In this document: positions 1 through 8,955 of the stretch, one piece after another
How the letters are laid out: every line of letters starts with the position of its first letter
How positions within the stretch are numbered: the stretch's first letter is position 1
Assembly: GCA_020350725.1 (NCBI GenBank)
Contig: CP070719.1
Coordinates: 2,768,209 to 2,777,163 of the forward strand
DNA: 8,955 nucleotides
Origin: a bacterium
Lineage (GTDB): Bacteria; BMS3Abin14
Direction of reading: 5' to 3'
Notes under the pieces: generated by a model
Told to the model about the DNA's origin: nothing
What the model saw: only the letters and a program-made list of their open reading frames with translations
The model's database searches: none
Made by a program: the position numbers and the translations under genes

Positions 1-1
1 C

Positions 2-129
2 GAATCACAAATCACGGCTGTTTCCCAACCGGGAACGGTGAACGGTGAACTGTGAACTGTCTTTTTGGATTTTGGACTTTGGATTGATCTCTAATCTCTA
101 ATCTCTAATTTCTAATGCTCTGATTCCCC
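2..129 (-). repeat. Composite heptad repeat element, left inverted copy
   Basis: This stretch is made of four kinds of 7-nt tandem word. Two AATCAC-type units lie at 2-15. Four GGGAACG/GTGAACG/GTGAACT units lie at 31-58. Three TTTGGAT/TTTGGAC units lie at 64-84. Four CTCTAAT/TTCTAAT units lie at 89-116. A unique end, GCTCTGATTCCCC, follows at 117-129. Read on the minus strand, the same modules in the same order recur at 5856-5963, so the RND operon lies between inverted copies. Compared with the right copy it carries two extra ATTAGAG-type units and two extra TCCAAA-type units. The left end may continue beyond the window. This is seen directly in the sequence; no function is known. Confidence 0.85.
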
Positions 130-132
130 ACT

Positions 133-153
133 GTGGACCGTGAACGGGGAACT
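133..153 (+). repeat. Short heptad array in the RND operon leader
   Basis: Three degenerate 7-nt units, GTGGACC, GTGAACG and GGGAACT, run in phase. They are the same word family as the array at 31-58. The sequence after them (ATCTTTTTTGG) resembles that after the first array (GTCTTTTTGG at 59-68), so this looks like a second, truncated copy of that junction. It ends only 27 nt before the adaptor start codon, so the leader between the composite repeat and the operon is itself largely repeat. No convincing sigma70 promoter is seen in 1-180. TATCTT at 153-158 is a weak -10 lookalike without a good -35. Confidence 0.7.
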
Positions 154-180
154 ATCTTTTTTGGTTGAGAAGGGACAGCC

Positions 181-1308
181 ATGGATCAGGATATCGCACG
201 GATGGACAGCCAGCCCACGGGTAGAAAAAGATCTCTGCGCCAGTTCCTCTGGCTGCCGCTGACCCTGCTGGCCGTCGTTGGGTTGTCGCTGTTCCTCAGG
301 GCGGCCGACACTCAGGACAGCCCGGAAAGCGCGAAGACCGATATATCCCCCTCTCCGGGCCTCCTGGTGGAGACGGCCCCGGCCGAGATCATGCCCGCCA
401 ACCGTGAGATCTCAGCCGTCGGGACCCTGCACTCCAACGAGGCTGTGGTCATCGCGGCGGAGATCGCCGGCAGGGTGACGGAGATCTCCTTTACCGAAGG
501 GGAAAGGGTCAGGGCCGGAAAGGTGTTGGCCCGCCTCGACAGTTCCGTTCTCCAGGCCCAGCGTGACCGGGCCGATGCCAGCCTGGTCCTCAGCCGGGCC
601 AACCGGGACCGGGCCGATGTCCTGCTCAAGGACGAGGCCATCTCCCAGCGGGAATGGGACGAGGCCTATGCCCAGTGGCGCCTCGACGAGGCCGACCTCC
701 GCCTGGCCGAAGCCCAGCTTGCCAAGACTGTCATCGAGGCGCCCTTCGATGGAGTCCTCGGGCTTCGCCATGTGAGCGTCGGCGAGTATGTCCAACCCGG
801 CATAGCCATTGTCACCCTGGACGACACCGACCCGATCAAGGTCGATTTCAGGGTTCCCGAGACTTTCATCGGGGGTCTCGAAGTCGGCCAGACGGTCCAG
901 GTCGAGGTCGATGCCATGCCGGACAGGACCTTTACCGGCCTGGTCTACGCCATTGACCCCAAAGTGGACGTCAACGGCCGAAACCTTCTCGTGCGGGCGA
1001 GGATCTCCAACCGGGACCGATCCCTCCGCCCTGGGATGTTCGCCCACGTCAACCTGGTCATCGAGGAAAATCCCACGGCCCTGATGGTCCCCGAACCGGC
1101 CATCATCTCCCGGGGCCGGGACCAGCTGGTGTACAAGGTCGTCGAAGGCAGGGTGGTGGAGGCGCAGGTGACCATCGGGATGCGCCGCAGGGGGCTGGTG
1201 GAGATCGTGGAGGGGCTCGAGGCCGGCGACATCGTCATCACTGCGGGCCAGATCAAGGTCCGGCCGGGGATGCCGGTCACCGTGGCGCCGGCCGGTGAGG
1301 GCAACTGA
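181..1308 (+). CDS. RND efflux periplasmic adaptor (membrane fusion protein)
   Basis: This 375-residue protein is the periplasmic adaptor of a tripartite RND pump. It would link the inner-membrane transporter to the outer-membrane channel. After a basic N-terminus there is one hydrophobic segment at about 21-39 and no lipobox cysteine, so it is probably anchored by an uncleaved helix. The order is the usual HlyD/AcrA order: half lipoyl domain about 80-120 (GRVTEI.F.EGERVRAG), an alpha-helical coiled-coil hairpin about 121-182, second lipoyl half about 184-215 (IEAPFDGVLG), beta-barrel about 218-293, and membrane-proximal domain about 296-370. The start is ATG with AAGGGA 5 nt upstream; a second ATG at codon 8 is less well placed. 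It is the first gene of the operon and ends 5 nt before the pump gene. The family assignment is firm; the drug or metabolite handled cannot be read from it. Confidence 0.95.
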   Translation: MDQDIARMDSQPTGRKRSLRQFLWLPLTLLAVVGLSLFLRAADTQDSPESAKTDISPSPGLLVETAPAEIMPANREISAVGTLHSNEAVVIAAEIAGRVTEISFTEGERVRAGKVLARLDSSVLQAQRDRADASLVLSRANRDRADVLLKDEAISQREWDEAYAQWRLDEADLRLAEAQLAKTVIEAPFDGVLGLRHVSVGEYVQPGIAIVTLDDTDPIKVDFRVPETFIGGLEVGQTVQVEVDAMPDRTFTGLVYAIDPKVDVNGRNLLVRARISNRDRSLRPGMFAHVNLVIEENPTALMVPEPAIISRGRDQLVYKVVEGRVVEAQVTIGMRRRGLVEIVEGLEAGDIVITAGQIKVRPGMPVTVAPAGEGN

Positions 1309-1313
1309 CGCTT

Positions 1314-4300
1314 ATGGTCCTCTCAGACCTGTCCATCCGCAGACCGGTCCTGGCCACAGTGATGAGCCTCGTCCTGATCCTCGTCGGCCTGATCAGCTAC
1401 CAGCGCCTGTCCGTTCGCGAGTACCCCAAGATCGACGAGCCCGTGGTCAACGTGACCACCGTCTACACCGGCGCCACCGCCGAGATCGTCGAATCGCAGA
1501 TCACCCAGCCCCTGGAGGAGAGCCTGGCCGGCATCGAGGGCATTGACCTGATGACCTCCACCTCCCGGCCCGAGAGAAGCCAGATCACCGTCAAGTTCGG
1601 CCTCACCCGGAACCCGGATGAGGCGGCCAACGACGTGCGCGACCGCGTGTCCAGGGTGCGGGGCCGCCTGCCGTCGGACATCAGCGAACCGGTCATCAGC
1701 AAGGTCGAGGCCGATGCCCAGCCGACGATCTTCCTCGCCTTCTCCTCCGCCAACCACACCGCCCTCGAGATCACCGACTACGCTGAGAGGTTCGTCAAGG
1801 ACCGCCTCCAGAACATCCAGGGCGTGGCCAACGTCCGGGTCCTGGGCGAACGGCGGTTCGCCATGCGGATCTGGCTCGACCGGATGCGGCTGGCCGCCTT
1901 CCAGCTTACCCCCCAGGACGTGGAGAGCGCCCTGCGCCAGCAGAACGTGGAGATCCCGTCGGGCCGGATCGAGTCCATCGACCGCGAGTTCACGGTGCTG
2001 TCGGAGACGGACATGCGGACGGCCGAGGAGTTCGAACAGATGATCTTACGGGACGTCGGCGGCTACCTGGTCCGTCTCAAGGACGTCGGCCGGGCCGAGA
2101 TCGGCGCAGAGAGCGAACGCACGGTGGTCCGCTTCCAGGGCGAGCCGGCCGTGGCCCTCGGCGTGGTCCGACAGGCCACGGCGAACCCTCTGGACGTCTC
2201 CGAGGCCGTCCGGGAGAGCCTTCCCGCCATCGAGGCGTCCCTGCCCGACGGGATGCGGGTCTACGTCGCCTATGACAGCTCCATCTTCATCGAGCACTCC
2301 ATCAGGAACGTCTTTCACGCCGTAGGCGAGGCCGTGGCCCTGGTCATCCTCGTCATCTTTCTCTTCCTGCGCTCCGTCCGTTCGACACTGATCCCCCTGG
2401 TGACCATCCCGGTGTCCCTGGTCGGTGCCTTCGGCCTCATGTACGCCTTCGGCTTCACCATCAACACCCTCACCCTGCTCGCCATGGTGCTGGCTATCGG
2501 CCTCGTGGTGGACGATGCCATCGTGGTCCTGGAGAACATCTTCCGCCACGTGGAGGAGGGGATGGACCCTCTGAAGGCGTCCTTCCAGGGCAGTCGGGAG
2601 ATCGCCTTCGCCGTCATCGCCATGACCCTGACCCTGGCGGCGGTCTACGCCCCCATCGGTTTCATGCAGGGGCGCACCGGCAGGCTGTTCACCGAGTTCG
2701 CCCTGACCCTGGCCGGGGCGGTGCTCGTGTCGGGTTTCGTGGCCCTGACCCTGTCACCCATGATGAGCTCCAAGCTGCTGCGCCACCGGGACAGGCACAT
2801 GGCCATCTACAATGTCATCGAGGCGGTGATCGTCGCGATGACGGAGGGCTACCGCCGCCTGCTCCAGTGGTCCCTCAGGGCCAGCTTTGTGGTCATCCTG
2901 GTCGGCCTGCTGATCGCGGGGGGGGCCTACTTCCTGTTCGGAATGCTCAAGTCCGAACTGGCCCCCACTGAGGACCGGGGGGTCATCCTGAGCATCGGCA
3001 TAGGGCCCGAGGGGTCGACGGTGGCCTACACTGACCGCTACGCCCGCATGATGGAAGGTGTCTTCGCCGGCACGCCGGAGGTCGAGCGGTACTTTGTTGT
3101 CTCCGGCTACCCCACCGTGTCCCAGATCATCTCCTTCGCCAGTCTCAAGGACTGGGGCAGCCGGGAGCGGAAGCAGCAGGCCATAGCCCGTGAGCTGCAG
3201 CCCAAGCTCTTCGGCGGCATTCCCGGCGTCATGGCCTTTCCCATTAACCCGCCGTCCCTCGGCCAGCGCTCCATCGCCCAGCCCGTACAGATAGTGGTTC
3301 TGACTTCGGCCCCCTACGAAGAGCTGCGCAGGATGACGGACCGGATCGTGGAGGAAGCGCGCCAGTGGCCCGGATTCATCAACCTGGATACGGACCTGAA
3401 GCTGAACAAGCCCCAGCTCAACGTGCAGGTGGACCGCGAAAAGGTAGTGGACGTGGGACTCGAGGTGGCCACTGTCGGCCGCACACTGGAGACCATGCTG
3501 GGCGGGCGGCAGGTCACCCGGTTCAAGCGCCACGGCAAGCAGTACGACGTCATTGTCCAGGTGGAGGAGGCCGACCGCGCCACTCCGTCCGACCTGTCAG
3601 CCATCTACGTGCGGGGCAGGGACGGAGAGATGGTTCAGCTGTCGAACCTGGTGACGGTGAGGGAAACGGTGGCCCCCAAGGAGCTGAACCACTTCAACCA
3701 GCTCCGGTCGGCCAAGATCACCGCCAGCCTGGCGCCGGGCTATTCCCTCGGTGAGGCCCTGGAGGAGCTGGAGGTGATCACCGATCGGGTCCTGCCCGCA
3801 GACGCTGTGATCGATTACGACGGGCCCTCGCGTGAGTTCCGGGAGAGCGGCGCGAGCATGTACGTTACCTTTCTCCTCGCCCTGGGTTTTATCTACCTCG
3901 TCCTGGCCGCCCAGTTCGAAAGCTTCATCGATCCTTTCATCATCATGCTCTCGGTTCCCCTCAGCGTGACCGGAGCCCTGGGCGCCCTTTACCTGACCGG
4001 CAACACACTGAATATCTACAGCCAGATCGGCCTGGTGACGCTGGTCGGCCTGATCACCAAGCACGGCATCCTTATCGTCGAATTCGCCAATCAGCAGAGG
4101 GAAAGAGGGATGGAAAAGCTGGAGGCGGTGGTGGAATCGGCCACCCTCAGGCTGCGTCCCATACTGATGACCACGGGCGCCATGGTGCTGGGCGCTATGC
4201 CGCTGGCCCTGGCCACCGGCGCCGGCGCCGAGAGCCGTCAGGCCATAGGATGGGTCATCGTCGGCGGTATGTCCCTCGGCACCCTCCTGACCCTTTTCGT

Positions 4301-4391
4301 CGTCCCGACGGCCTATCTCCTCATTGCCCGGCGGCAGAGGACCCCGGGAGAGGAGATGGTGGGCGGTCCGTCGTTGGGAGATGGAGCATGA
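1314..4391 (+). CDS. RND multidrug-type efflux pump, inner-membrane subunit (HAE-1/AcrB family)
   Basis: This 1025-residue protein is near full AcrB length (about 1050). It is a proton-driven exporter expected to work as a trimer. The N-terminus (SIRRPV, then VREYPKID at 34-41) is typical of the family. The layout is TM1 at about 10-30, a large periplasmic porter loop, TM2-TM6 from about 335 to 485, TM7 at about 523-543, a second periplasmic loop, and TM8-TM12 from about 850 to 1005. The proton-relay residues are present: the Asp pair D400-D401 in GLVVDDA (TM4), K916 in GLITKHGIL (TM10), and R948 in RLRPILMT (TM11). It should therefore be active. The start at ATG 1314 gives the standard N-terminus; GAGGG lies 12 nt upstream, inside the end of the adaptor gene. 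An uninterrupted G8 run at 2918-2925 codes for part of TM7. The substrate is unknown; HAE-1 members export drugs, dyes, bile salts, lipids or signals. Confidence 0.96.
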   Translation: MVLSDLSIRRPVLATVMSLVLILVGLISYQRLSVREYPKIDEPVVNVTTVYTGATAEIVESQITQPLEESLAGIEGIDLMTSTSRPERSQITVKFGLTRNPDEAANDVRDRVSRVRGRLPSDISEPVISKVEADAQPTIFLAFSSANHTALEITDYAERFVKDRLQNIQGVANVRVLGERRFAMRIWLDRMRLAAFQLTPQDVESALRQQNVEIPSGRIESIDREFTVLSETDMRTAEEFEQMILRDVGGYLVRLKDVGRAEIGAESERTVVRFQGEPAVALGVVRQATANPLDVSEAVRESLPAIEASLPDGMRVYVAYDSSIFIEHSIRNVFHAVGEAVALVILVIFLFLRSVRSTLIPLVTIPVSLVGAFGLMYAFGFTINTLTLLAMVLAIGLVVDDAIVVLENIFRHVEEGMDPLKASFQGSREIAFAVIAMTLTLAAVYAPIGFMQGRTGRLFTEFALTLAGAVLVSGFVALTLSPMMSSKLLRHRDRHMAIYNVIEAVIVAMTEGYRRLLQWSLRASFVVILVGLLIAGGAYFLFGMLKSELAPTEDRGVILSIGIGPEGSTVAYTDRYARMMEGVFAGTPEVERYFVVSGYPTVSQIISFASLKDWGSRERKQQAIARELQPKLFGGIPGVMAFPINPPSLGQRSIAQPVQIVVLTSAPYEELRRMTDRIVEEARQWPGFINLDTDLKLNKPQLNVQVDREKVVDVGLEVATVGRTLETMLGGRQVTRFKRHGKQYDVIVQVEEADRATPSDLSAIYVRGRDGEMVQLSNLVTVRETVAPKELNHFNQLRSAKITASLAPGYSLGEALEELEVITDRVLPADAVIDYDGPSREFRESGASMYVTFLLALGFIYLVLAAQFESFIDPFIIMLSVPLSVTGALGALYLTGNTLNIYSQIGLVTLVGLITKHGILIVEFANQQRERGMEKLEAVVESATLRLRPILMTTGAMVLGAMPLALATGAGAESRQAIGWVIVGGMSLGTLLTLFVVPTAYLLIARRQRTPGEEMVGGPSLGDGA

Positions 4392-4410
4392 TTTCGGTCC
4401 CGGACAGACC

Positions 4411-4414
4411 GAGG
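4411..4414 (+). promoter_or_regulatory. Ribosome-binding site deciding the outer-membrane channel start
   Basis: GAGG is followed by five bases and then ATG at 4420. The two other in-frame ATGs are worse. The one at 4381 has GGGAG directly against it with no spacing, and the one at 4324 lies deep in the pump gene. Starting at 4420 also gives a clean lipoprotein signal peptide. Confidence 0.6.
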
Positions 4415-4419
4415 CTGCT

Positions 4420-5880
4420 ATGCATCGGAACCCTGTAAAAAGTCGCCGCAGCAGACTCGCTCTTTTCGCCGTCCTCGTCCTGGCCCTGGCCGGGTGCACC
4501 GTCGGCCAGGAGTACCGCAGGCCCGAATTGAGTGTGCCGAAGACATACCGCGAAGGGGCCCCGTGGAAGGAGGCCGAACCCTCCGATACGCTGCCGAAAG
4601 GCAGGTGGTGGTCCATGTTCTCGGATGCGGGGCTTGACGATCTGCAGGACCGGGCCCGAAAGGCCAACCAGGACCTCCAGGCCGCCCTCGCCCGCATCGA
4701 ACAGGCCCGATCGGCCCTCCAGGCCGTCGGGTCCGGCATCTATCCCCGACTGGATCTCAACCCCTCCGCAGAGCGCAAACGGACCGCTGAAGACCTCTCG
4801 TCCACCGGCAGCGGTCTGACCTCGACAACCCTTCGAACACCCCTGGACCTGAGCTATGAGGTGGACCTCTGGGGAAGGGTGAGGCGGTCCGTGGAGGCGG
4901 CCCGGACCGAATTCGAGGCAAGCCAGGCCGATTTTGAGAACATTCTGCTTGCGTTACAGGCCGATGTGGCCCGCAGCTATTTTTCCCTGAGGACACTGGA
5001 CGCGGAGATCGACCTTTTGGGCCGCACAGTAGACCTGCGGAGAAAAAACCTCGAACTGGTTCAGAGCCTGTTCCGTAACGGGCAGGTGTCCCGACTCGAC
5101 CTCGCCCGGGCCGAGACCGAGCTGGCCAACACCACCGCCGATCTGGCCGCGCTCCGCCGCCTGAGGGCCTCCACCGAACACGCCCTCGCCGTCCTGGCCG
5201 GTGAGCCGGCGTCCGGCTTCAGGGTCCCGGCCATGCCCCTCGATCTTGACGCGCAGCCCCCTGCCGTCTATCCCGGTATCCCGTCCAGCCTGCTCGAACG
5301 GCGCCCGGACATCGCCGCCGCCGAACGCCGGTTGATGGCGGCCAACGCCCGCATCGGTGTCGCCGAGGCCGCCTTTTTCCCCTCCATCCGGCTGACGGGC
5401 AGCGCCGGATATGCCAGCGACGAGCTCTCGTCGCTCTTCAGCTGGGACAACCGGACCTGGTCCCTGGGGCCTTTCCTCTCCCTTCCGGTCTTCGACGGAG
5501 GGCGCAACCGGTCCGGCCTCAACCTGGCTCGGGCGAGGTGGGAGGAGGCCGTGGCCCGCTACCGGAAGCAGGTCCTGGTGGCCTTCGCCGAGGTGGAAGA
5601 CGCCCTCTCGGACCTTCGCAACCTGGACGTGCAGTCGCAGGCCCAGCGGCAGGCCATGACCTCGGCGCGACAGGCGTCGGAACTGTCGGGAAAGAGGTAT
5701 CGTGCCGGCCTGGTCAGCTATCTGGAGGTCGTGGTCAGCGAACGGACGGCTCTTGCCTCGGAACTCCTCGCCGTGAGGGTTCTGGGGCTCCGTCTCCAGG
5801 CAAGCGTCACCCTGATCAAGGCGCTCGGCGGGGGATGGGAGGATGCCTCCGGGGCGGGGAATCAGAGCATTAGAGATTAG
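4420..5880 (+). CDS. Outer-membrane efflux lipoprotein of the NodT type (TolC-like channel)
   Basis: This 486-residue lipoprotein is the outer-membrane exit duct that docks on the RND adaptor. From ATG 4420 there is a basic n-region, a hydrophobic stretch and a lipobox LALAGC with the lipidated cysteine at residue 26, followed by TVGQEYRRPEL, the usual start of mature NodT-family channels. Two outer-membrane efflux (OEP, PF02321) repeats follow. The hallmark region IPSSLLERRPDI (287-298) then AAAERRL..ANARIGVAEAAFFPSI opens the second. Conserved sequence ends around ALGGGW, a common family ending. The remaining residues run into a heptad repeat: codons for NQSIRD and the TAG stop are part of the composite repeat at 5856-5963, so the tail is probably acquired. 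The gene starts 28 nt after the pump stop and completes the operon. Longer starts at 4381 (11-nt overlap with the pump gene) or 4324 are possible but would spoil the signal peptide. Confidence 0.93.
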   Translation: MHRNPVKSRRSRLALFAVLVLALAGCTVGQEYRRPELSVPKTYREGAPWKEAEPSDTLPKGRWWSMFSDAGLDDLQDRARKANQDLQAALARIEQARSALQAVGSGIYPRLDLNPSAERKRTAEDLSSTGSGLTSTTLRTPLDLSYEVDLWGRVRRSVEAARTEFEASQADFENILLALQADVARSYFSLRTLDAEIDLLGRTVDLRRKNLELVQSLFRNGQVSRLDLARAETELANTTADLAALRRLRASTEHALAVLAGEPASGFRVPAMPLDLDAQPPAVYPGIPSSLLERRPDIAAAERRLMAANARIGVAEAAFFPSIRLTGSAGYASDELSSLFSWDNRTWSLGPFLSLPVFDGGRNRSGLNLARARWEEAVARYRKQVLVAFAEVEDALSDLRNLDVQSQAQRQAMTSARQASELSGKRYRAGLVSYLEVVVSERTALASELLAVRVLGLRLQASVTLIKALGGGWEDASGAGNQSIRD

Positions 5881-5963
5881 AGATCAATCCAAAAGGACAG
5901 TTCACCGTTCACAGTTCACGGTTCACAGCTATAAACCTTCGTGATTCGTGATTTGTGATTTGG
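5856..5963 (+). repeat. Composite heptad repeat element, right inverted copy
   Basis: The sequence runs GGGGAATCAGAGC, two ATTAGAG units (5869-5882), ATCAATCC, AAAAGGACA, four GTTCACN units (5900-5927), a unique GCTATAAACCTTC, then three GTGATTC/GTGATTT units (5941-5961). The modules match the reverse complement of 2-129 in order, including identical unique junctions (GGGGAATCAGAGCATTAG and AGAGATCAATCCAAA). The array overlaps the 3' end of the outer-membrane channel gene and supplies its TAG at 5878-5880. No stem plus T-run terminator is visible here. Confidence 0.85.
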
Positions 5964-5971
5964 AAAGACGA

Positions 5972-5985
5972 GTTCACCGTTCACC
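5972..5985 (+). repeat. Two further GTTCACC heptads
   Basis: Two exact GTTCACC units stand apart from the composite element, separated from it by GGAAAGACGA, and run directly into the palindromic motif at 5990. They are the same word as in the array at 5900-5927. Confidence 0.6.
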
Positions 5986-5989
5986 GCCT

Positions 5990-6010
5990 GCCCTGAGCCT
6001 GTCGAAGGGC
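5990..6010. repeat. Short dispersed hairpin motif (GCCCT ... CTGTCGAAGGGC)
   Basis: A 21-nt motif begins GCCCTGAGCC and ends TGTCGAAGGGC, with a 5-bp stem GCCCT/AGGGC. From memory, near-identical motifs (CCCTTCGACAGGCTCAGGG) are scattered between genes in many environmental bacteria. It is followed by a C-run, not a T-run, so it is not a standard intrinsic terminator on the + strand, though it could act at the RNA level after the RND operon. Confidence 0.5.
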
Positions 6011-6064
6011 CCCCTCGCCCTATCTCCCCCTCGCCCCCTCGGGTAGGTCCCCGCGTCTCCGCCT
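6010..6064 (-). repeat. C-rich block with G-quadruplex pattern on the minus strand
   Basis: Four C-runs (6010-6014, 6018-6020, 6026-6030, 6034-6038) are separated by TCG, TATCT and TCG. On the minus strand this fits G3+N1-7 four times. It continues into GGTCCCCGCGTCTCCGCC, whose reverse complement resembles the GACGCGGAGA words at 8875-8884. A related block in opposite orientation lies after the ABC operon. It lies just upstream of the promoter candidate for that operon. Confidence 0.55.
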
Positions 6065-6084
6065 CTGCTTTTCGTCCCTTCTTC

Positions 6085-6112: not shown

Positions 6113-6117
6113 GGAGG
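6113..6117 (+). promoter_or_regulatory. Strong ribosome-binding site selecting a TTG start
   Basis: GGAGG is a near-perfect anti-SD match. TTG at 6123 sits 5 nt after it. The alternative in-frame GTG at 6117 overlaps the last G of the site, which leaves no spacing, so TTG is preferred. Confidence 0.6.
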
Positions 6118-6122
6118 TGGCC

Positions 6123-6965
6123 TTGGACCTGCCCAGAGCCGAACAATCCGTTTCCGCCGCACTGACCCGTTACTGGTTCGCTTTCCGACTGGTCTTCCAG
6201 GAGCGGATGGCATACAGGGTGAATTTCTTCCTCGAGGTACTCAGCGGCATCTTCGCCTCCCTCATAGTGGTCTTCCTGTGGCTGGCCGTGTACCGGTCCT
6301 CTGGAACGCCAAGGGTGGGGGGGTTTTCCCTGGCGGAGATGATCACCTATCTTCTGGGAGGCGGCCTCATCAATACCTTTATCCTCACCGCCGCGGACAA
6401 CCCGGAATCGAGCCGGGACATCCTGGAGGGGGACCTCTCCGGCCTCCTCATCCGTCCCATGAGCCCCTACGGACTGTGGTTCGCCCGGGACGCCGGCAGC
6501 AAGGTCTTCCTTCTCATCCTGGGCGGACTGGGCTACGCCGCCGTTCTCCTCGTCTTCAGGAAGTATCTCCTCGGCCCGGCCGGCCCCGTCTCCCTCGCCC
6601 TCACCCTGGCACTCGTGGCCACCGCCGCCCTTGTCCAGTTCTTCCTTTTCCAGGGCCTCAACATGCTGGCCTTCTGGGTGGAACAGACCTATGGTTTTCT
6701 GTTTGTCATGCGCATCGTCATGGAGGTGGTGGGCGGGGCCATCATTCCGCTGTCCTTCTTCCCGGACATCGTCCAGCGAGTGTTCATGGCCACCCCCTTC
6801 CCCTACATGGTCTACATCCCCATGCAGACCTGGCTGGGGCGGATCGGACCGGGTGAGGCGGCGGCGGCCCTGGGCCGGTCGGCTGCCTGGGCCGTGGCTC
6901 TGGGCCTGATCAACCTCGTCCTGTGGCGGCGGGGTGTCCGGCAGTACGTTTCCATGGGGGACTGA
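6123..6965 (+). CDS. ABC-2 type permease, COG4587-like (PF06182 family)
   Basis: This 280-residue inner-membrane protein is one of two permease subunits of an ABC exporter. About six hydrophobic helices are visible, near 36-56, 70-90, 126-146, 155-178, 195-215 and 253-268. The amphipathic N-terminus (YWFAFRLVFQERMAYRVNFF), the cytoplasmic loop DILEGDLSGLLIRPMSP (99-115) and the C-terminal WRRGVRQYVSMG are typical of the COG4587 branch. The loop is the likely coupling contact with the ATPase. TTG 6123 is chosen for its spacing to GGAGG; GTG 6117 would add two residues. The gene ends 4 nt before the second permease. Its codons include a G7T4 run at 6317-6327. The substrate is not known for this branch; I assign family and role, not cargo. 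Confidence 0.88.
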   Translation: MDLPRAEQSVSAALTRYWFAFRLVFQERMAYRVNFFLEVLSGIFASLIVVFLWLAVYRSSGTPRVGGFSLAEMITYLLGGGLINTFILTAADNPESSRDILEGDLSGLLIRPMSPYGLWFARDAGSKVFLLILGGLGYAAVLLVFRKYLLGPAGPVSLALTLALVATAALVQFFLFQGLNMLAFWVEQTYGFLFVMRIVMEVVGGAIIPLSFFPDIVQRVFMATPFPYMVYIPMQTWLGRIGPGEAAAALGRSAAWAVALGLINLVLWRRGVRQYVSMGD

Positions 6966-6969
6966 GACC

Positions 6970-7770
6970 ATGGGAATCCTGAACCGCTACATCACCATTC
7001 TCCGACACCTGGCCCGGAACGCCCTCATGAGGCAGATGGCCTACCGCCCCCACTTTTTCCTCATGGTAACCGGCAAGGTGGTGCGCATCGGGCTCCTCAT
7101 CCTTTTCTTCAATGCCCTGTTCTCCCAAGTGGACCGCCTGGGCTCCTGGACCTACGACCAGGTCCTGCTTCTGTTCGCAACGTTCCATCTGGTCGACTTC
7201 ATCATCAGCTTCACCTTTCACCGCAACCTCGCCTTCGCCCTCCCAGCCCAGGTCCAGTCCGGGGACCTGGACTCACGCATGCTCCTGCCGGTCAATCTCC
7301 TGTTCCTCGTTTCCCTGGAGTACATCGACGTTCAGGACTTCCTGAGCTTCCTGCCCACCCTCGGCTTCGCAGGCTACGTCCTGTGGCGAATGGAGATCCC
7401 CCTCACCGCTCCGGGAGTGACCCTCTACCTCCTGCTGGTGGTCAACGCCGTCGTCTTTCTGTACGCGGCCGTCCTGGCGGTGGCGTCCCTTTCCTTCTGG
7501 ACCACCCAGTCGCGGGGCCTGGCCCGAGTCTTCGACAACCTCATGAAAGTCGGCCGCTATCCCCTGGACATCTTCAGGGGAGCAGCGAGAGCGGTCTTTG
7601 CCTACGTTCTGCCTCTTGTCCTCATTGCCCAGGTCCCCACACAGGCCCTCACCGGCGTTCTGACCCCGGGCGGGATCCTGTTCGCCTTCTCCTTCTCCGC
7701 CGCCGCCCTGACATTCTCCCTGATCCTGTGGAACAAGGGACTGCGGACCTACTCGTCGGCCAGCACATGA
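6970..7770 (+). CDS. ABC-2 type permease, COG3694-like (PF06182 family)
   Basis: This 266-residue protein is the partner permease of the upstream gene, expected to form a heterodimeric pore with it. Six hydrophobic regions are visible, near 28-50, 63-83, 122-138, 147-177, 203-224 and 234-253. The loop VQSGDLDSRMLLPVN (95-109) parallels EGDLSGLLIRPMS of the first permease and is the likely ATPase contact. The segment GRYPLDIF (195-202) followed by the VLPLVLIAQVP helix, and the ending LWNKGLRTYSSAS, match the COG3694 branch. ATG 6970 is preferred, with GGGGGA 8 nt upstream. A GTG at 6934 would overlap the upstream gene by 32 nt and add 12 residues with no family match. The ATPase gene begins 13 nt after its stop. 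Confidence 0.88.
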   Translation: MGILNRYITILRHLARNALMRQMAYRPHFFLMVTGKVVRIGLLILFFNALFSQVDRLGSWTYDQVLLLFATFHLVDFIISFTFHRNLAFALPAQVQSGDLDSRMLLPVNLLFLVSLEYIDVQDFLSFLPTLGFAGYVLWRMEIPLTAPGVTLYLLLVVNAVVFLYAAVLAVASLSFWTTQSRGLARVFDNLMKVGRYPLDIFRGAARAVFAYVLPLVLIAQVPTQALTGVLTPGGILFAFSFSAAALTFSLILWNKGLRTYSSAST

Positions 7771-7783
7771 GAGGTTCGTCATT

Positions 7784-8779
7784 GTGAGCGTCATCTCCGC
7801 CAAAGAGCTCTCCCGCAGGTACTGGTTCTACGAAAAGGAACCCGGCATGGCCGGAGCCCTGCGGTCTCTTTTCAGCGGCAGGAGGCGTTACGTGGACGCT
7901 GTCAGAATGCTCGACCTCGAGGTGGGACTGGGGGAGGTCATCGGCTTTCTGGGCCCCAACGGCGCCGGCAAGACCACCACCCTCAAGATGCTGTGCGGCA
8001 TTCTCCATCCCTCTTCCGGGCACCTCGAGGTTCTGGGTCACAGGCCGTCGCGCCGGGAGAAGGATTTCCTTCGCCAGATCACCTACGTGGCCGGCCAGCG
8101 CAACCGCCTGTTCTGGGACCTTCCCGCAGAGGACTATTTCTCTTTCTGCCAGGTTCTCTACGAGATTCCCGATCCCGTGTACCGCCGCAATCTGGATGAA
8201 CTGGTTGAGCTGGCCGGTATCGGCGAGATCCTCAACGTGCCCCAGCGAAAGCTTTCCGCCGGCCAGCGCAAGCGCTGCGAGATCGTTGGAGCCCTCCTCC
8301 ACGACCCCAGGCTCATCCTCCTCGACGAACCCACCAACGCCCTGGACCTGATCAATGCCAGGCGGATCCGACGTTTCATTCAGAACCGGAGCCGCGACGG
8401 GCGGCACACCTTCCTGGTCACCTCCCACAACATGTCCGACATCGAGGGGGTGTGCGACCGCGTCGTGGTCATCGACGGGGGAACCAAGGTCTTCGACGGG
8501 CCCATCACGGGCCTCAACCGGCAGGGAGGCCACAGCAAACAGGTGCGGGTGACCTTTTCCGCGGAGTGGAAGAGGAAAGCCCTGGAGGAACTGGGCAGCA
8601 TTGTCAGGGTCATGGGGGACGAGGTGACCCTGGAGGTGCCGCCTGACAGGGCCGCCGCTGTGGCCCGGACACTCCTTGACAACTTTCCCGTGAGGGACAT
8701 CAGCGTCACGGAACCGACTCTGGAACGGGTGATCGAGGGCCTTTACGAGGGAAGGGAAGACGGAGAGGGGGAGAAATGA
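7784..8779 (+). CDS. ABC transporter ATP-binding protein, COG4586-type
   Basis: This 331-residue ATPase would drive the two permeases encoded just upstream. The nucleotide-binding domain is intact. Walker A is GPNGAGKT (57-64), the Q-loop is Q105 in YVAGQRNRLFWDLP, the signature is LSAGQ (157-161), Walker B is LILLDEP (177-183), the D-loop is NALD, and the H-loop is H215 in VTSHNM. The AGQRNRLFWDLP stretch resembles the GQ...WWDLP motif of the COG4586 branch and helps set it apart from general NatA-like ATPases. A C-terminal extension (about 250-331) follows the core. The start is GTG 7784 with GAGAGG 9 nt upstream. The TGA stop overlaps the first unit of a GAGTCCA heptad array. Gene order permease-permease-ATPase is the reverse of the ATPase-first order I recall for this triad. 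The transported substrate is unknown. Confidence 0.93.
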   Translation: MSVISAKELSRRYWFYEKEPGMAGALRSLFSGRRRYVDAVRMLDLEVGLGEVIGFLGPNGAGKTTTLKMLCGILHPSSGHLEVLGHRPSRREKDFLRQITYVAGQRNRLFWDLPAEDYFSFCQVLYEIPDPVYRRNLDELVELAGIGEILNVPQRKLSAGQRKRCEIVGALLHDPRLILLDEPTNALDLINARRIRRFIQNRSRDGRHTFLVTSHNMSDIEGVCDRVVVIDGGTKVFDGPITGLNRQGGHSKQVRVTFSAEWKRKALEELGSIVRVMGDEVTLEVPPDRAAAVARTLLDNFPVRDISVTEPTLERVIEGLYEGREDGEGEK

Positions 8780-8809
8780 GTCCAGAGTCCAGAGGCCAGG
8801 GTCCAGAGG
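8778..8809 (+). repeat. GAGTCCA heptad array at the end of the ABC operon
   Basis: Four in-phase 7-nt units, GAGTCCA, GAGTCCA, GAGGCCA and GGGTCCA, are followed by a partial GAGG. The first two bases of the array are the last two of the ATPase TGA stop, so the array begins at the stop codon. The word is distantly like the GTGGACC unit at 133-139 on the opposite strand (TGGACTC). Confidence 0.8.
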
Positions 8810-8811
8810 GA

Positions 8812-8882
8812 GCAAAGAGCGGACGCGGAAATGCGAGGGGGCGGTGGGGCGAGAGGGCGGTGGGGCGAAGAGCAGACGCGGA
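8812..8882 (+). repeat. G-rich repeat block with G-quadruplex pattern
   Basis: The outer direct repeats at 8812-8829 and 8865-8882 match at 16 of 18 positions (core AGAGC.GACGCGGA). Inside them, GCGGTGGGGCGA occurs twice (8841-8852 and 8857-8868) with a 16-nt period. Four G-runs (8837-8841, 8846-8849, 8855-8857, 8862-8865) with 4-5-nt loops fit a canonical quadruplex pattern on the + strand. The block resembles the reverse complement of 6010-6064. No open reading frame of interest crosses it. Confidence 0.65.
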
Positions 8883-8896
8883 GAGAAAAGGCGGTT

Positions 8897-8932
8897 GTCA
8901 TTGCGAACCGATACCAGTGTGAAGCAATCTCG
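8897..8932. repeat. Dispersed imperfect palindrome (GTCATTGCGAAC ... GAAGCAATCTCG)
   Basis: The outer parts ATTGC and GCAAT pair around a less conserved centre. From memory, the frame GTCATTGCGA ... GCAATCTCG is a widely dispersed intergenic repeat in environmental bacteria, with a variable middle that often forms a stem. The centre here (CCGATACCAGTGT) pairs poorly, so this copy may be degenerate. The remaining 23 bases to the window end show nothing I can name. Confidence 0.5.
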
Positions 8933-8955
8933 GGAATAAAAGCTTTAACACAGAG

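Follow-up and report, generated by a model that had tools for sequence, protein, structure and literature searches.

Genes and repeat elements at the locus

The DNA analysed here (the window, a stretch of 8,955 nucleotides taken as a whole) encodes six genes, all of them transport genes, and holds three repeat elements built of short modules designated by letters. All six genes were recovered by the codon-usage gene caller that also supplied the coding calls used below. In order, the features are:

1..153, minus strand: left element, truncated at window base 1 where an assembly piece ends; in minus-strand order a partial A-like array, the junction CAGAGCATTAG, D (ATTAGAG) and C (TCCAAAG), then the A array (GTTCACN), a connector and the start of the B array (GTGATT)
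181..1308, plus strand: RND efflux periplasmic adaptor (MFP) gene (TIGR01730, E 1e-81)
1314..4391, plus strand: RND efflux permease gene, multidrug-type (HAE1-like) (NF033617, 1202 bits)
4381..5880, plus strand: NodT-type outer-membrane efflux factor gene (TIGR01845, E 4e-130; coordinates from the gene call)
5856..6067, plus strand: right element; arrays D, C, A, B and A, then CCTGCCCTGAGCCTGTCGAAGGG (~5987-6009), C-rich octads Q (6009-6041) and an S module (CCGCGTC)
6117..6965, plus strand: ABC-2 type membrane protein gene of the neighbouring operon (PF06182, E 4e-23)
6970..7770, plus strand: second ABC-2 type membrane protein gene (PF06182, E 8e-44)
7784..8779, plus strand: ABC transporter ATPase gene (PF00005, E 2e-26)
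8764..8955 (about), minus strand: third element of the same mosaic, reaching the assembly-piece end; E array at 8778-8808, Q octads at 8833-8868 and P palindrome at ~8891-8930

The permease score lies slightly below the NF033617 cut-off of 1250, and the start of the outer-membrane gene is uncertain, being placed at 4381 by the gene caller while the family search used 4420. The initial annotation had described an operon enclosed by two inverted repeat copies, at 2-129 and 5856-5963, in a window devoid of transposase and recombinase genes. The interval does contain one complete operon, composed of an MFP adaptor, an RND permease and a NodT-type outer-membrane factor, but the right copy is not cleanly outside it, the outer-membrane gene reaching its stop codon (5880) within a repeat arm. 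All six genes being transport genes, the window, in which the left element is incomplete, has no transposase gene; a recombinase gene is likewise absent from it. The ABC ATPase gene likewise has its stop in element-like sequence, GAGAAATGAGTCCAG, which recurs. The outer-membrane and ABC ATPase genes, the two genes of the window that extend into an element, both terminate inside it. Their last codons and stops are supplied by the repeat (5856-5880 and 8764-8779, respectively), as are those of several other genes.

The inverted similarity between the two copies was borne out. It comprises three inverted arms made of 7-bp tandem modules, which pair 33-71 with 5886-5924 (39 nt, 90% identity), 101-129 with 5856-5884 (29 nt, 97%) and 78-102 with 5869-5893 (25 nt, 100%) at a spacing of 5.7-5.8 kb. 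Heptad runs occupy positions 33-60, 87-109, 5869-5884, 5938-5962 and 5972-5986 of the window. Two junctions formerly called unique turned out to recur, GGGGAATCAGAGCATTAG being found 5 times and AGAGATCAATCC 10 times in 1.33 Mb of the same genome. The third element, at ~8764-8955, had not been counted. It lies at the window end, and the neighbouring ABC operon is likewise bracketed by inverted elements.

Architecture of the repeats

The repeats were characterized in a sample of 60 spaced 20-kb stretches (1.2 Mb), to which chosen stretches were added for a total of 1.33 Mb, about half of the genome. Among 453 tandem arrays in the sample, 152 have a period of 7 and 94 a period of 14, and exact runs at both periods are in excess over a Markov control. 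Nine recurring modules share one polarity, 573 of 591 adjacent modules being co-oriented, and they follow a preferred order, D-C-A-B-A-P-S-Q-E, with recurring connectors. The module words are ATTAGAG (D), TCCAAAG (C), GTTCACN (A), GTGATTN (B) and CCGCGTC (S); P reads ATTGCTTCAC...TCGCAATGACAACCGC and looks palindromic, Q consists of C-rich octads and E is CTCTGGACNCTGG. D and E modules often adjoin stop codons, in the orientation expected for the two ends of a block. Owing to partial reverse complementarity between the A and B words, the A-B part is predicted to fold as one hairpin. Over 40 copies, the predicted fold reaches mean z-scores of -1.7 and -1.9 on the two strands, with 15 and 17 copies below -2, values that remain modest. 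No Rfam match to a known structured RNA was obtained up to E 0.5.

Copy number and genomic distribution

The A-array pattern, GTGAACNGTGAAC, matches 198 times genome-wide (112 on the plus and 86 on the minus strand) versus a single match for the reversed control (0 plus, 1 minus), an abundance far above chance as judged by this control. A BLAST search with the right copy returned 86 matching pieces in its own genome. Heptad runs are predominantly intergenic, 228 lying between genes versus 24 in coding sequence, in a sample of which 85% is called coding. Within assembly pieces, 26 pairs of adjacent elements were found 0.1-14 kb apart, 11 of them inverted and 15 direct; bracketing by inverted copies is an ordinary event in this genome. 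Since elements adjoin many transcription units in both orientations, the RND operon is not marked as a unit. These numbers support one of the possibilities raised initially, namely a common genome-wide repeat of which two copies happened to land here. They also correspond to the situation that, according to the initial annotation, would make the bracketing coincidental (hundreds of copies in random orientation around unrelated genes): about 200 array matches lie in both orientations beside many different, unrelated genes. Consequently, the bracketing pair very probably represents two members of a genome-wide, polarised, intergenic mosaic family made mainly of 7-bp tandem modules, and their position on either side of the operon is most likely coincidental rather than a sign of a cassette that moved or flips.

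The two copies are also poorly matched to each other. In the roughly half of the genome searched (1.33 Mb), the left copy ranks only 33rd among the matches to the right copy, the self-match counted, with a bit score of 63.5 versus 117 for the best other match. The nearest relatives of the left copy lie elsewhere as well, headed by the overlap of this copy with another piece of the assembly. An invertible segment, in which recombination at the inverted copies would flip the operon, could draw on inverted arms of 25-39 nt placed 5.7 kb apart. The longest uninterrupted identity in these arms, however, is 25 bases, whereas stretches of 150-350 bases at 93-99% identity are shared by other copies (overlaps between assembly pieces account for some of these), hence the bracketing pair is not favoured for recombination. 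Given in addition the many alternative partner copies and a window without a recombinase gene, inversion of the operon appears highly unlikely.

Elements located between genes of the same direction are more often antisense to them (36:13, p=0.0014 on the assumption, possibly wrong, of independent elements), which hints at selection or at an insertion preference. Their spread is uneven, as 58 elements lie in 25 gap-containing stretches versus 11 in 35 gap-free stretches.

A-B elements are absent from G000:C1:1-270000 of the host genome (G000) and from other long gap-free stretches; elsewhere they reach up to 10 core matches per 20 kb, a contrast for which breaks of the assembly at repeats account only partly at best.

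Assembly breaks at the repeats

The 2.78-Mb contig consists of pieces chained by gaps of exactly 100 N, 43 of which fall in the 1.2-Mb sample. One such gap (G000:C1:2768109-2768208) immediately precedes the first base of the window, and the last base of the window is the last base of the contig record. A heptad run lies within 200 bp of 23 of 85 piece ends versus 3.35% of random windows, an approximately 8-fold enrichment that fits assembly breaking at heptad repeats.

The left element continues in an overlapping piece, 848659-854782. Positions 1-475 of the window overlap the end of that piece (L135, G000:C1:848659-849141) in inverted orientation at 97% identity, 470 of 483 alignment columns being identical and the remainder comprising five mismatches and an 8-nt indel, TAATGCTC, located in the D array. 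From the alignment, the window probably has piece 848659-854782 as its true neighbour on the left, and the inverted overlap would probably be explained by two versions in the population that are one repeat unit apart. A second overlap between pieces carries a 15-nt difference in its D array, about two units. Such differences in unit number amount to two cases only, with units of 7 and 8, and may partly be assembly errors.

The operon in related genomes

Relatives of the permease in the same family share 84% (G001), 77% (G002) and 71% (G008) identity with it. In G001 and G002, which represent two related genera, the adaptor gene follows a gap of ~80 bp that is free of repeats. The gene upstream of it looks like a TetR regulator by its sequence and is 77% identical between both genomes; unlike in these, no TetR-like gene lies beside the operon here. 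In G002 the permease is not followed by an outer-membrane gene, and in G001 the outer-membrane gene extends into an assembly gap. Both the adaptor and the permease gene of G002 (L124, G002:C45, 6031-10214) are broken into several frames and may be decayed or misassembled. Judged from these comparisons, the neighbours of the operon differ from genus to genus, and the operon exists without upstream repeats. The initial annotation had held that an orthologous operon in the same place without repeats would argue against movement; the repeat-free upstream gap is indeed present in both genera, although with different neighbours, and so not strictly in the same place.

These comparisons bear on whether the operon moved as a unit between terminal inverted copies in the style of a composite transposon. 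One complete operon does lie between inverted copies, and its neighbours do differ in each related genus. Cassette transposition was nevertheless rejected on three grounds: the two copies do not match each other best (the left one has rank 33), the left end is an assembly break beyond which the sequence continues into another piece, and orthologous operons are repeat-free upstream; many copies, moreover, adjoin unrelated genes, and the window has no transposase gene. The footprint of a transposed cassette proposed earlier is already largely refuted, and we regard it as extremely improbable. The main use of assigning the pair to a dispersed repeat family is to keep the efflux operon from being wrongly described as a mobile or invertible cassette. 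The locus also illustrates how an assembly that breaks at repeats can give the impression of a bracket.

The modules themselves are unevenly distributed in the host's family. G000, G002, G004 and G011 contain the A word frequently, and G003, G007 and G009 lack it. The P word was found in G003 and G007 without A arrays, hence modules are separable. In G051, from another family, GTGAACNGTGAAC has 24 matches versus 6 for the reversed control, which hints at the word outside the host's family. The two orthologous gaps of G002 that were compared, L124 (G002:C45) 11948-12032 and L147 (G002:C1) 3845-4071, carry other 7-bp words where G000 has the mosaic (small samples): CAGAACG and TCTGCGT in one gap and CTTATCC in the other.

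Possible roles and origin

Elements could flank the operon because they are selected at gene ends, where the A-B hairpin would act in RNA 3'-end stabilisation, processing or termination. The single hairpin predicted for the A and B arrays (mean z -1.7 / -1.9), the antisense bias relative to tandem genes (36:13) and the element ends that adjoin stop codons, some of these stops being supplied by the element, are all consistent with such a role. Yet only 62 of 352 gaps of at least 150 nt have a module and long stretches are without any, the repeat words differ in the two orthologous gaps of the related genus, the fold z-scores are modest and Rfam gave no match. We consider a role at gene ends rather unlikely as the reason for the bracket.

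The elements are mosaic, palindromic, high-copy and intergenic, which recalls elements of the REPIN/BIME kind that a RAYT (REP-associated tyrosine transposase) mobilises in trans, and the genome has two Y1_Tnp genes. Different repeats, however, flank one of these, and the other reaches an assembly gap, on the far side of which heptads lie. Neither Y1 transposase gene found is clearly linked to the element, and mobilisation by a RAYT seems unlikely to account for the family. A Y1-type transposase gene at L143 (G000:C1:1208563-1208886) has a flanking inverted pair, GGTTAAAAGGCAAGATGCGACCCC, that is unrelated to the heptad mosaic.

For the dispersed mosaic family itself, we propose that array units would be gained and lost by replication slippage. 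Slippage during replication has been proposed for the length change of heptanucleotide repeats (PMC4679880, PMC4692102). Slippage alone is insufficient to explain the uneven spread of the elements, and whole blocks may also be copied to other intergenic sites, for example by gene conversion or, in trans, by a transposase. The majority of copies are probably close to neutral. Because the two orthologous gaps of the related genus carry different 7-bp words, one may further imagine that intergenic DNA in the host's family is repeatedly rebuilt by a copying process that works in steps of 7 whatever the word, the arrays of this lineage having become a polarised, block-spreading composite. This last idea is tentative and has, in our estimation, a small chance of being correct; if true, the step of 7 would be a property of an enzyme, not of a sequence. 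The repeat family may merit study for its unrelated heptad words in fixed order and for the other words found at two orthologous gaps, features relevant to why repeats of 7 nt prevail in certain bacteria, a question that is still open.

Comparison with known repeat systems

Composite transposons have mutually closest terminal repeats and a transposase gene in or between their ends. Here, the left copy is only of rank 33 for the right one and all six genes of the window are transport genes. The family resembles heptanucleotide simple sequence repeats, with which it shares an excess of period 7 and a mostly intergenic location (228:24). Intergenic heptameric repeats have been described as GGGAATC in Xanthomonas and GGGGA(C/T)T in Nostoc (PMC4692102). 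Like these, the present repeats have a unit of 7 with variable positions and occur in many intergenic copies, probably vary in sequence and length among relatives and have the potential to form stem-loops. The Xanthomonas and Nostoc repeats consist of one G-rich word with quadruplex potential, whereas several unrelated words in a fixed order, joined by connectors, are found here. TAACTGA direct repeats occur in marine Beggiatoaceae, Cyanobacteria and some Bacteroidetes (PMC4679880); they too are short, intergenic 7-bp direct-repeat arrays with a patchy distribution among relatives, but they use a single word located mostly just upstream of start codons, while the present mosaics often adjoin stop codons.

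With BIMEs and REPINs (PMC2817692, PMC3116915), the family has in common a mosaic of recurring motifs in many intergenic copies, a high copy number, the formation of hairpins and the absence of own coding capacity. BIMEs and REPINs are made of REP palindromes, while the elements described here are mostly tandem heptads, with neither Y1_Tnp gene clearly linked to them. Altogether, the family is a modest variant of known repeats, combining the period, location and probable variability of heptad repeats with a mosaic, hairpin-forming organisation like that of BIMEs and REPINs.
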